A stretch of DNA of 64,000 nucleotides from Intestinibaculum porci (GTDB lineage: Bacteria > Bacillota_I > Bacilli_A > Erysipelotrichales > Coprobacillaceae). The translations under genes and the position numbers were made by a program. The stretch covers positions 2,914,001-2,978,000 of the forward strand of contig NZ_AP019309.1 of the NCBI RefSeq assembly GCF_003925875.1, read 5' to 3'. How positions within the stretch are numbered: position 1 is the first letter of the stretch; each line of letters begins with the position of its first letter. Below the pieces are notes generated by a model. The model did no database searches, was not told the origin of the DNA, and saw only the letters and a list, made by a program, of their open reading frames with translations. Positions 5,362 through 9,872 of this stretch are shown piece by piece.

Positions 5362-6915
5362 ATGAAGAAAAGCAACGATAACGAAATAGTGTTTGCCGAC
5401 ATAATCCCTGGTGAAAACGGCTTAATAGATGGGGATTTCATTCTCCAGCTTTTCAACCTGCATAAAGAAGACGTTGAGGATCTTTCATGCATTCATCAGG
5501 CAGACGGCATTTACGTTTTTATTACGCTAGCCGCAAGAAAGCACGAATGTCCGTACTGCACCACGCCCACCAAAAAAATCAAAGGCTATCACACCAAGAA
5601 GATCACCCATTCGATCTTTCACAACATCAACTGCTATATTGAATACCATGTTAGACGCTATGAATGCACTGCATGCGGCAAAACATTTAATGAAGACAAC
5701 CCCTTCTCAGAAGGCCATTCCACAATCAGTGTGCTGACCGTGTATAATGTCCTGACTGCATTGAGAAATCCTAAGCTGAGCTATGAGGATGTCGCCAAAA
5801 CGTTTAATATTTCTGCCTCTTCGGTAATGATCATATTTGACAGACACGTTCAGATTCCCAGAAAGCCGCTTCCCAAGTATATTCTAATCGACGAAGTTCA
5901 TGCCGTTGACAGCCGCGATTCAAAGTATGCGTGCGTTATCATGGACTTTGTAACGCAGGACATCATCGACATTCTGCCAACAAGAAGAAAGGAGGATCTT
6001 GTCAGATACTTCACTCTTATTCCCCGGGAGGAGCGTGAAAAAGTTGAAATCATCTGCTCTGACTGCTGGAAAACCTATCGTGAAATCACCAGGATATGCT
6101 TTCCTAACGCTATCCATGCCTGCGATGAATTTCACATCATTCAGATTTTTACAGAAATTTACAAAGGATTGCGAGTTGATACAATGAAGGCCGCTAAAAA
6201 TAAGCGTGACAAGCTCGAAAAGTATCTCACTACCCCTAACGGCCGCAAGTATCTCAACCACGAATGGAATAAATATGACATCCAGCATTATCTTCTCAGC
6301 AAGTGGAACTGGCTTCTGATGAAGTCTGATGAATATAAAAGCAAAGATAACAAGAAAAAAAAGAAGAAAAAAGGCAAGCACGCTGACGATGAGGAGCTGC
6401 CTATCCTGGATCCTAACAGAGCAAAGAAGATGAACAAAAAGCTGGGCAGATATCTCAATTTCTATGATATCCATAACCTTCTGATTGAAACCAATCCTGA
6501 TCTGGCTGAAGCGGAAAACTTCTACGACAAGCTTAGAGCGTTTTACCACACAATCAGCTACAATGAAGCCAGAGAAGCGCTCAATTCCCTGATTGGAGAC
6601 CTGAGAATGTCTAACGTTCCTGAAATATGCGGATATGCCAGCACCCTCAGCGAATGGAAAAAATCAATCGTCAATTCGTTCATCATTATTGACGATACGG
6701 GCACTCATATTTCGACCGGGAAAATTGAATCACGGAATAAAATCATCAAAGACGTAAAGAGGGCTTCAAACGGTGTGAGAAACTTCCAGAGATTCAGAAA
6801 CCGCTGCCTCTTTGCGATAAACACAGATACGCCAATCTACATGCCTTATACGCCTAAAAGAAGAATTGATGACGATAATGATCGCAGCAATAAATCTAAA
6901 AAAACAAGCAAGTAA
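5362..6915 (+). CDS. ISL3-family transposase
   Basis: A 517-aa DDE transposase. Two CxxC pairs (residues 63-66 and 102-105) form the N-terminal zinc ribbon of ISL3 transposases, followed by a helix-turn-helix-like stretch (about 140-165). Catalytic-domain motifs follow in the usual order: IDEVHAVD (D177), CSDCWKTY (D234), HACDEFHI (D255), and the late STGKIESRNKIIK with the catalytic Glu. Unusually, an insertion near residues 325-345 contains a run of seven lysines, and the C-terminus ends in a basic, Asp/Ser-rich tail. The enzyme cuts and joins the element's ends. The frame is intact, so it is potentially active. Confidence 0.9.
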   Translation: MKKSNDNEIVFADIIPGENGLIDGDFILQLFNLHKEDVEDLSCIHQADGIYVFITLAARKHECPYCTTPTKKIKGYHTKKITHSIFHNINCYIEYHVRRYECTACGKTFNEDNPFSEGHSTISVLTVYNVLTALRNPKLSYEDVAKTFNISASSVMIIFDRHVQIPRKPLPKYILIDEVHAVDSRDSKYACVIMDFVTQDIIDILPTRRKEDLVRYFTLIPREEREKVEIICSDCWKTYREITRICFPNAIHACDEFHIIQIFTEIYKGLRVDTMKAAKNKRDKLEKYLTTPNGRKYLNHEWNKYDIQHYLLSKWNWLLMKSDEYKSKDNKKKKKKKGKHADDEELPILDPNRAKKMNKKLGRYLNFYDIHNLLIETNPDLAEAENFYDKLRAFYHTISYNEAREALNSLIGDLRMSNVPEICGYASTLSEWKKSIVNSFIIIDDTGTHISTGKIESRNKIIKDVKRASNGVRNFQRFRNRCLFAINTDTPIYMPYTPKRRIDDDNDRSNKSKKTSK

Positions 6916-7225: not shown

Positions 7226-7723
7226 ATGGCAATGAAAGACTATGAAATCAGCTCAGATCCTCTTACAGAGAAGGATGATGACTATGATCCGGAAATGTAC
7301 GAAGACGGCAGCACAGAAGCGATGGGAGCATACTATACCTATATCGCTAATTCACTGTCCAGAATCAAAACAGCGCTAAGCGCAACCTCCAGCAGCAAGA
7401 AAATAAAGGAACTGATGTCATCGGATGAAAACATTAATATTTATCAGATGCTTATTGATGATCCCCGCCTCATGAAGGATATAAGAGAGGCAATGAGCAG
7501 TGATATCATTAAGCCTTTTGACGAGGATAACCTGTTAGAATTATACATGAATAAAGTATCAGATTTAATCAGCCAGATTGAATACGTATATCCTGAAATA
7601 TATATGACTCTTATGCACAAGATACTCCCATACAGCGTAGCATCATATTATGATCAGATGGTTTCCGAAGAAAACGACAGGGATTTTGAATATGCCATCC
7701 AGGATGATGATGTACAGTTCTAA
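7226..7723 (+). CDS. Acidic hypothetical protein between two IS elements
   Basis: A 165-aa, strongly acidic, soluble protein; a clear AAGGAGAA ribosome site lies just before the ATG at 7226. It has no recognisable motif. The N-terminus is Asp/Glu-rich (DDDYDPEMYED) and the middle is helical, with MSS/SSDE repeats. It lies between the ISL3 transposase and the IS110 element, behind the attenuator-like hairpin, so it could be a third gene of the first element, a cargo gene or a neighbour. I do not recognise it. Confidence 0.65.
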   Translation: MAMKDYEISSDPLTEKDDDYDPEMYEDGSTEAMGAYYTYIANSLSRIKTALSATSSSKKIKELMSSDENINIYQMLIDDPRLMKDIREAMSSDIIKPFDEDNLLELYMNKVSDLISQIEYVYPEIYMTLMHKILPYSVASYYDQMVSEENDRDFEYAIQDDDVQF

Positions 7724-7783
7724 AAATGTGCATAACTGTATCGCTTTGAATGCAGTGAAAACAGCATAATAAGAGCATAAAAA

Positions 7784-8110
7784 GAAGGAAACTCGTTATT
7801 TCCTTCTCGTATAATATGTTTGTAATTTGATTAATGAATCATCGCTAGTAATTGATGATTCTTTAGATTTGAATATACACTTCAAATCCAGGATAATAGA
7901 TTCTGTTTTGAACCTAAGGTTGTATTCTTTCCTCCTGCGGCCCCTATGGGATGTCCGCTTCAGAAAGACTTATTCCTCAGCCAAAACAGTTCTTTATACC
8001 CTAATGAGTTTGTTGAAGCTTTGTTTGCATTGTCTTCTTATTTTCGAGGTCGCGTTTGTCTTGGCTTAGAGGTGCAGTTCAAAACAAATTACTATCAATT
8101 TATGAAATGA
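7784..8110 (+). ncRNA. Candidate bridge-RNA region of the IS110 element
   Basis: The 397-bp gap 7724-8120 directly before the IS110 transposase has no convincing gene but has ordered structure: an 8-bp hairpin (7784-7791/7799-7806), a TATAAT box at 7810-7815, then 8-bp hairpins GAATCATC/GATGATTC (7836-7843/7854-7861) and GATTTGAA/TTCAAATC (7866-7873/7881-7888), and a GCGG/CCGC helix with an internal CCC/GGG (7937-7958). In IS110-group elements a structured bridge RNA with target- and donor-binding loops is encoded between the left end and the transposase gene, which is where this lies. Its limits and loops are not proven. Confidence 0.45.
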
Positions 8111-8120
8111 GGTACTTATC

Positions 8121-9542
8121 GTGAAAAACAATATCTTTTCAAAACAATATGATTTATTTCTCGGTTTAGACGTTTCTAAAGGCAAAGCAGACGCTGCCAT
8201 TTATAAACGTAACAGAGATAGAAATGTTAAATCCAAATTTGTTCGAAAGGCGATAAAGTTTAAATTCACCAAGCCAGGTGTCGATGAGTTCCTCGATACC
8301 GTTAGACATTACAAAGATGAAGACTGCCTGAGCGTTCTTTTCGCAATGGAAGTAACAGGCGTGTACTCTGACAATGTCTATATGTATATACGCGATCATC
8401 TCCAGGAAAGTGAAGCAGTTAAGTTTCTGGATACTAAATTCGTTGACAGGTGGCGCGATGCACACGGATATGCCAAATCCGATCCACTTGACGCTAAGAC
8501 TATTGCACAGATGTGCGCAACTGATGATGATGCACGTTATGTTGAAAAAGCTCCTAATTACAACGAAGAAAACAACAAAAAAGGACATGCGAATCTAAAA
8601 CTTCTGACGCATCGCTATCAGCAGCTGAATAAACAGCTAAATGCTGAATACAATCGACTGAGTGCACAGTGTGAAAAGTTCTTCCCGGAGCTTACCGCTG
8701 TTTTCTCAATACGTTCTGCGACTGCGCTTGCAATCTTAGAGGCATATCCTACTGCACATCATATCATTAAATCTTCTAAAAATGAAGTCTTTAATGTGGC
8801 TTACGAGGCCTCTAAGCATCGCTGTAAGGAAGCTAAAATAGACGATTTGTTCGATCTTTGTGAAAATACCATTGTTACTCTTAATGTTCCTCAGGAAGCT
8901 GAACTGATCACCGTTGAAATGGTCAGCAGTATCAGAAATCTGCTTCAGACAAGGAGAAACTACAAGAAAATGATGGTTAATCTTGCTTCAGAACAGCCTG
9001 CATTTAAGCGTCTTCAGACATTAATCGGTGTTGGTGAAGAATCCGCAGCTATGATTCTTGGTGAGGTATATGACATAGCTCTTTCCAAGAAAGCGGAAAA
9101 CTTTGCATCATACTGTGGATTAACGCCAAGAAATAAGAAATCAGGTTCATCAGTTGATACCCATGGGAAGATTTCCAAAATGGGATCGCCTATCCTCAGA
9201 CACGCTATATACCTGGCATCAGAGTATGCCAGACGGCATAATCCATACCTTGCCAACCTTTTTGCAAGGGTTAAAAATGGCAATAAGAAGCGCCATAAGC
9301 TTGCAATAGTAGCTGTTGCCAATAAGATGGCACGTTATATTTACGCTATTCTTAAGCATGATAGTGATTTCGTACTGCTTTATGAGGATCTCATGAAGCT
9401 TCCGGAAGATACCCGAGCCACGTTCTTCCAAAGTATTACTACTGACATTCCAGAAAAGACAAGAAGATGTATTTACAAATATTCTGATGAGAATGGTGTA
9501 GTACATGATTTTACCTTTACTGGAAATGACTCAGAAGAGTGA
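8121..9542 (+). CDS. IS110-family DEDD transposase
   Basis: A 473-aa protein with the two IS110 domains. The N-terminal RuvC-like DEDD domain shows LGLDVSKGKAD (D17), AMEVTGVY (E77) and KSDPLDAKTIA (D121, D124). The C-terminal IS116/IS110/IS902 domain shows LIGVGEESAAMILGEV, then FASYCGLTPRNKKSG and a serine-rich SGSSVDTHGKISKMGS stretch carrying the likely nucleophile. Length is a little above the usual 330-450 aa. These enzymes recombine DNA guided by a bridge RNA. The ATG follows a GAGGTACTT site. The frame is intact, so it is possibly active. Confidence 0.92.
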   Translation: MKNNIFSKQYDLFLGLDVSKGKADAAIYKRNRDRNVKSKFVRKAIKFKFTKPGVDEFLDTVRHYKDEDCLSVLFAMEVTGVYSDNVYMYIRDHLQESEAVKFLDTKFVDRWRDAHGYAKSDPLDAKTIAQMCATDDDARYVEKAPNYNEENNKKGHANLKLLTHRYQQLNKQLNAEYNRLSAQCEKFFPELTAVFSIRSATALAILEAYPTAHHIIKSSKNEVFNVAYEASKHRCKEAKIDDLFDLCENTIVTLNVPQEAELITVEMVSSIRNLLQTRRNYKKMMVNLASEQPAFKRLQTLIGVGEESAAMILGEVYDIALSKKAENFASYCGLTPRNKKSGSSVDTHGKISKMGSPILRHAIYLASEYARRHNPYLANLFARVKNGNKKRHKLAIVAVANKMARYIYAILKHDSDFVLLYEDLMKLPEDTRATFFQSITTDIPEKTRRCIYKYSDENGVVHDFTFTGNDSEE

Positions 9543-9872
9543 TACTGTATGTAGATTTTTGATATAAAACACATATGTTTCAATAACTTGTGACAACTTT
9601 CACATTTATACACACTAAGACGTTTTCTTTTTGCAATTTTTAATACTACATATTTGTAGTACTCACCTCTAATCCAAGACAAACTCACTTGGCTTTAGAA
9701 TCAGAGTAAACAAAGATTCAATTAATTTATACAATTAACAAAATCAACTCCTTTCATATTTTCTATTGACATTTAATAGTATGTCTTTTAATATTTCAAT
9801 TAGCAAGCATGACTGAGCTGTATTTTGGATTTAAACAAACATACTGAAAATATATAGGCATAACAAATAAAA

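Follow-up and report, generated by a model that had tools for sequence, protein, structure and literature searches.

Programmable guides for DNA recombination, known as bridge RNAs, have recently been described for the IS110-group element IS621 (PMC11208160; see also PMC11208158). The concordance between the loops of IS110 bridge RNAs and their targets extends over many orthologues according to the available part of PMC11208160, which also gives CT as the core of IS621. In ISEc11 (IS1111 type) and ISEc21 (IS110 type), seekRNAs of the non-coding region guide target choice (PMC11187229, available part). The IS110 family also includes IS900 of Mycobacterium avium subsp. paratuberculosis, whose target motif CATGNNNNNNTCTCCTT corresponds to a start codon plus an antisense Shine-Dalgarno (SD) sequence in the available part of PMC8141618, and the title of a 1997 paper by Doran, cited in the same article, states that IS900 targets translation initiation signals. 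Since this precedent is in print, aiming at translation-initiation signals was already known in the IS110 family. A literature search for IS110, bridge RNA and Shine-Dalgarno combined gave no paper; what is new here is a predicted guide RNA that would account for SD targeting in a lineage other than that of IS900 and with a different insertion point.

The stretch of DNA analysed, referred to as the window, comprises 64,000 nt (positions 2914001-2978000 of the single-contig 3.21 Mb genome of Intestinibaculum porci) and contains a complete IS110 insertion sequence with a predicted bridge RNA that very probably guides its insertion mostly 5' of SD sequences. As far as IS621 is covered by the available part of PMC11208160, the element resembles it in its recombinase with DEDD and Tnp domains, its CT core and a predicted promoter at the joined ends, and the likeness extends to a left-end RNA, here predicted, with a 5' stem-loop, target and donor loops and two-sided target guides. 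The two systems differ in that the recombinase has 473 aa, compared with 328 in the IS621 chain (and 341 in the ISCro4 chain, ISCro4 being compared only through its PDB match), the predicted RNA has about 270 nt versus 177 in IS621 (PMC11208160), a closing helix is predicted around both loops, the targets are SD sequences instead of the REP elements that the same source gives for IS621, and the right end, of 242 bp, contains a segment complementary to the predicted RNA. With ISEc11 and ISEc21 the element would share a circular intermediate, which we infer here, and a promoter at the joined ends, whereas it has neither the RNA downstream of the transposase gene nor the subterminal inverted repeats that ISEc11 shows in the available part of PMC11187229. 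Assignment to the IS1111 group was considered and rejected, since no 7-17 bp subterminal repeats are found close to both ends and the guides lie in the left end.

The element and its insertion site

The genome carries ten copies of the element, nine with an intact gene and one split. All ten run from CGTATAAT (7808) to AGTATGT (9784), and the nine with an intact gene each measure 1,977 bp; to the left of 7808 the ten copies diverge, except for L001 and L029, which have like flanks. A search with the joined flanks of L001 recovered six unoccupied copies of its site (L179-L184), four of them identical to the joined flanks over 96 bases, one over 95 and one at 99% over 94, and CT is regarded as the core dinucleotide because these unoccupied sites carry one CT. 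The ends and the core, which the original prediction had proposed to define from other copies, are thus fixed by the ten copies together with the unoccupied sites, and the start of the interval is displaced from near 7724, where that prediction had placed it, to the shared end at 7808. The features are as follows, with the strand of each.

7782-7806, +, terminator-like hairpin of the host, outside the element, with its 3' arm as the former target (copy comparison)
7806-7807 (left) and 9785-9786 (right), +, core dinucleotide CT, present on both sides in 10 of 10 copies
7808-9784, +, complete IS110-group element of 1,977 bp (ends common to ten copies; unoccupied sites)
7810-7815, +, TATAAT, -10 half of the predicted junction promoter (TTGACA comes to a spacing of 17 bp once the ends are joined)
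7822-8090, +, predicted bridge RNA, both ends estimated (fold and conservation)
7832-7865, +, predicted 5' stem-loop (folding)
7905-8085, +, predicted closing helix around the target and donor loops, with arms 7905-7913 and 8077-8085 (folding, conservation)
7928-7936, +, predicted left target guide TTTCCTCCT (allele A), variable at 7932, 7933 and 7935, matching left targets
7962-7970, +, predicted right target guide AGAAAGACT (allele A), matching right targets, with 7963 and 7965 variable
8030-8048, +, predicted donor guides TTGTCT (8030-8035) and TTTTCGAG (8041-8048), read by eye against the joined ends
8121-9542, +, IS110 recombinase gene, 473 aa, GTG start (Pfam; NCBIfam NF033542)
9543-9784, +, right end (copy comparison)
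9664-9684, -, segment with complementarity to the predicted donor stem (3' arm, 8054-8074; sequence comparison)
9766-9771, +, TTGACA, -35 half of the predicted junction promoter, in the right end of the element

Because the element starts at 7808, the hairpin at 7782-7806 is host DNA. Four ordered hairpins had been proposed in front of the transposase gene; the structured non-coding stretch was confirmed, but its first hairpin lies outside the element, the left end mapping upstream of all the others. As judged from the flanks, this hairpin was followed before insertion by TTTAAT, a T-run that is now found beyond the right end, and hairpin and TTTAAT are therefore best read as the intrinsic terminator of the ORF at 7226-7723. 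The target of this copy is the 3' arm of the hairpin, TTTCCTTCT. A gene for an ISL3-family transposase is located just upstream (window positions 5362-6915; Pfam DDE_Tnp_ISL3 and Zn_ribbon_ISL3). The tenth copy, L029 (positions 2171600-2178000 of the genome), spans 4,128 bp, with about 2.15 kb of additional DNA interrupting its transposase gene.

The product of 8121-9542 matches PF01548 and PF02371, that is, a DEDD RuvC-like domain and a Tnp domain, and these matches bear out the IS110 transposase announced from 8121. It scores 184.3 bits against NF033542, 'IS110 family RNA-guided transposase' (cut-off 140), and its sequence matches two solved structures, the ISCro4 and IS621 transposases. D17, E77, D121, D124 and S344, which we take to be the catalytic residues, are invariant in six proteins. 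The antisense ORF hed that the available part of PMC8141618 describes for IS900 was not found here: no hed-like ORF spans the element in four clade elements or in five copies of two groups from genome G011 (see below), and the longest antisense stop-free stretch in the four clade elements is 119-142 codons. An ORF on the minus strand, 9473-9688, was considered as a possible gene.

The predicted bridge RNA and its possible control

At 313 bp the non-coding left end is longer than the right end, and holds the predicted structured RNA. In keeping with the structured non-coding stretch originally proposed before the transposase, the RNA of 7724-8120 is more stable than its shuffles (z -2.9, with 1 of 100 shuffles equally stable), as is that of 7822-8090 alone (z -2.8, 3 of 200 as stable). 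When 7905-8086 is folded alone, a closing helix encloses two stem-loops that hold the target and donor guides, and a small hairpin (7866-7888) appears when the 5' part of this lineage is folded alone. An alignment of ten left ends from seven genomes, with a mean column identity of 80%, shows the closing helix in all ten (GUUUUGAA(U/C) with (A/G)UUCAAAAC), together with a conserved target loop, which is flanked by AAGG..UUA and ACUUAAUCCU and contains a GYGG/CCRC hairpin, and a common donor loop; the 5' stem-loop recurs despite sequence change in six lineages folded separately, the hairpin of G032 being weak. Structure is therefore conserved among relatives, the point on which the original prediction had staked itself, and the fold is kept in the ten left ends with modest covariation. 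Over 24 named pairs, 97.9% of the cells are paired compared with 95.1% in shuffles, and seven cells are changed on both sides versus 2.0 in shuffles (0 of 500 as high). Pairs with two-sided changes amount to 3 of 24 over the ten sequences and further pair types to 4, and because these two counts are reached by 56 and 453 of 500 shuffles, respectively, the covariation is supportive but thin. Comparison of the donor loop with the joined ends by eye gave short matches, namely TGTCT (left) and CGAG (right). Rfam at gathering thresholds returned no match in the window.

The TATAAT box indicated in the original prediction is present, but a full promoter sequence arises only when the right and left ends are joined: in the integrated state no complete promoter was seen, the -35 half sitting at the opposite end of the element, and no outward promoter was seen by eye at the left end. 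Across the joined ends, the arrangement TTGACA-17-TATAAT was found in all six elements examined, from five genomes. On this basis, the predicted promoter of the bridge RNA forms only once both ends join.

A further trait of the clade is a 21-nt stretch in the right end. In ten right ends, three from the same genome and seven from other genomes, between 18 and 21 of its positions are complementary to the 3' arm of the donor stem, which is itself conserved (a relative's left end served for G017 and G024, and the right end of G035 is cut by its contig). Complementarity was at most 17 in 30 block shuffles per right end. In five elements of other IS110 groups it did not rise above the shuffles or, in L111 of G042, reached 17 versus 16. 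An interpretation of this segment as a subterminal repeat of IS1111 type was discarded, the match being 246 nt away from the left end and 100 nt from the right end. The segment may act at the RNA level, in competition with the donor stem, or serve as a site in the DNA; a conserved right-end complement to a bridge RNA would be a control element.

Guide alleles and their targets

Among the ten copies, 8 of the 313 left-end positions vary, and 5 of these 8 are inside the two predicted target guides, which defines two alleles, A and B, of five copies each. Each allele is associated with a class of right-hand targets of its own, namely CTTTCC, CTTTTA, CTTTCT and CTTTCT for allele A and CTAAGT, CTATGA, CTGTTT, CTATTT and CTATCT for allele B. 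In a test on nine sites, from which L029 was dropped as having the flanks of L001, the exact p for the association with the right target was 1/126 (0.008), no other assignment of labels being as good, and that for the left target was 4/126 (0.03). The genome hence represents a natural reprogramming experiment, with near-identical recombinases, two guide alleles and two target classes, and it is on such natural alleles that the putative programmability of the system rests.

The correspondence extends to other genomes. Left guides match their targets at 168 of 248 positions in 31 copies from 11 genomes (mean under permutation 130, sd 6.2, p 5e-5) and right guides at 68 of 92 positions in 23 copies (permuted mean 52, sd 3.7, p 1e-4), under a permutation that treats copies and genomes as independent, which they are not. 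Left guides without a terminal CT were aligned one base over in all copies, following a rule set post hoc. The count excludes L029, L102 (read later) and four copies with unreadable guides, of which three are from G035 and one is from G038. The best fit was that of G017, in which all ten letters match, core included; poor fits were those of L087 in G040 (0 of 8), L006 (2 of 8) and L063 (3 of 8). Private guide bases are matched in the copy's own target in L102 (G024, left guide) and in L012, a member of a second IS110 group (right guide). The loop bases thus match the flanks on both sides and vary together with them, as had been suggested for checking, and the putative bridge RNA in front of the IS110 transposase is supported by ends, core, fold and guide-target matches.

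These data also bear on the possibility that the left-end RNA serves the transposase mRNA only, as a structured leader or regulator, and that the recombinase itself finds SD-like DNA. The structured stretch does lie directly 5' of the gene, and, with transposases 99-100% identical within the genome, any preference residing in the protein would be common to the copies; yet with recombinases so similar the right targets differ with the guide allele, and the agreement between guides and targets extends over 11 genomes, which makes this explanation highly improbable.

The preferred reading, a bridge RNA that directs the recombinase, can be phrased by analogy with IS621. Excision would join both ends and create a sigma-70-type promoter, from which transcription of the left end would yield a bridge RNA some 270 nt long; this RNA would bind the recombinase, its donor loop would pair with the joined ends and its target loop with both target strands around the CT core, and recombination would insert the element at that core. 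As the guides resemble an antisense SD sequence, the element would mostly land just 5' of a ribosome-binding site, and the gene hit would read away from the left end and keep its own SD sequence and start codon. Guides of this type would explain how many permissive sites can be found in any host with the coding sequence unbroken, and suggest an RNA basis for the older observation on IS900.

Translation-initiation regions as targets in the host family

When the sequence is followed outward from the left end, most targets are AGGAG-like strings with a start codon behind them. An ATG located 7-19 nt from the core and opening at least 40 codons was found at 26 of 35 sites in 11 genomes (27 counting GTG/TTG; L029 and the G038 copy are omitted), while the same test is passed in the window by 8.2% of AG positions and 12.8% of SD-like positions. 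The binomial p versus the latter is about 1e-16, with sites taken as independent and this window alone as background. It follows from 26 of 35 against 12.8% that the element usually inserts just 5' of an SD sequence. The distance from core to ATG is near-constant, mostly 12-13 nt. Nine of the 35 sites fail the test, including that of the window's own copy, in the terminator; L002 and L003 sit elsewhere than SD sites, L003 apparently inside a coding sequence as judged by eye. Loose targeting, with the SD pattern mostly reflecting which insertions survive, would agree with such copies and with the fact that insertion 5' of an SD sequence spares the coding sequence, but it is very unlikely given the near-constant distance and a guide that itself resembles an antisense SD sequence in the lineages read. 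Targeting by an SD-like guide shares with IS900 the choice of translation-initiation signals, at the 26 of 35 sites mentioned. The insertion point is another one: IS900 inserts between the SD sequence and the start codon, whereas the window's clade inserts 5' of the SD sequence.

The second IS110 group is represented in the same genome by four copies (L012-L015), 23% identical to the first, that abut the antisense SD-like strings CATGGGGTTTCCTCCT, CATTGATATCCCTTCT, ACTCTCCT and TGTCCTCCT, and it has relatives in six further genomes. The ATG test is passed by 2 of these 4 copies and by 7 of 14 when ten G042 relatives are included (L111, L119, L122, L124, L126, L127 and L129-L132). A repeated host gene, the product of which begins with MSVCVVAPDKKPLMPT and is presumably IscB-like, has its SD sequence hit by both groups (L001, L029 and L012).

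Two further groups are found in G011 (L163-L178; 11 and 5 of the listed copies), where, with provisional element ends, an ATG lies outward at 20 nt in 9 of 10 copies (L165 being unscored, its left end not found) and at 16 nt in 5 of 5. Within each group the ATG is preceded by a shared string that includes GGAG or GAGG, and these elements may replace the SD sequence of the host gene, lying between it and the start codon. SD-like strings were also seen by eye in the right flank of most copies. From these outward ATG and SD patterns it follows that several IS110 groups of the host family sit in translation-initiation regions.

Close relatives of the window's element were detected at 1e-40 in 9 of 315 genomes of the host order and at 1e-60 in 3 of 395 genomes of a class sample, all belonging to the window's family. 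Plasmids and phages (at 1e-30) and viral contigs contained none, so that none was found outside the host family in the order, the class sample, plasmids, phages or viral contigs. A search of genome contigs, possibly with records near the window excluded, gave three distant loci at 30-31% identity.

A broader reading would join these observations: several unrelated IS110 groups of the host family would have converged, via guide RNAs, on translation-initiation regions (some 5' of the SD sequence, others at a fixed distance from the start codon with an SD-like string of their own), guides would drift between SD variants, and the right-end segment of the window's clade would be a built-in antagonist that limits transposition. 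As a whole, we regard this combination as speculative and rather unlikely. The genome also holds a third IS110-type gene, L016 (around position 206663), upstream of which TACCTCC/AGG and a nearby CAT, resembling an antisense SD sequence, were noted by eye.
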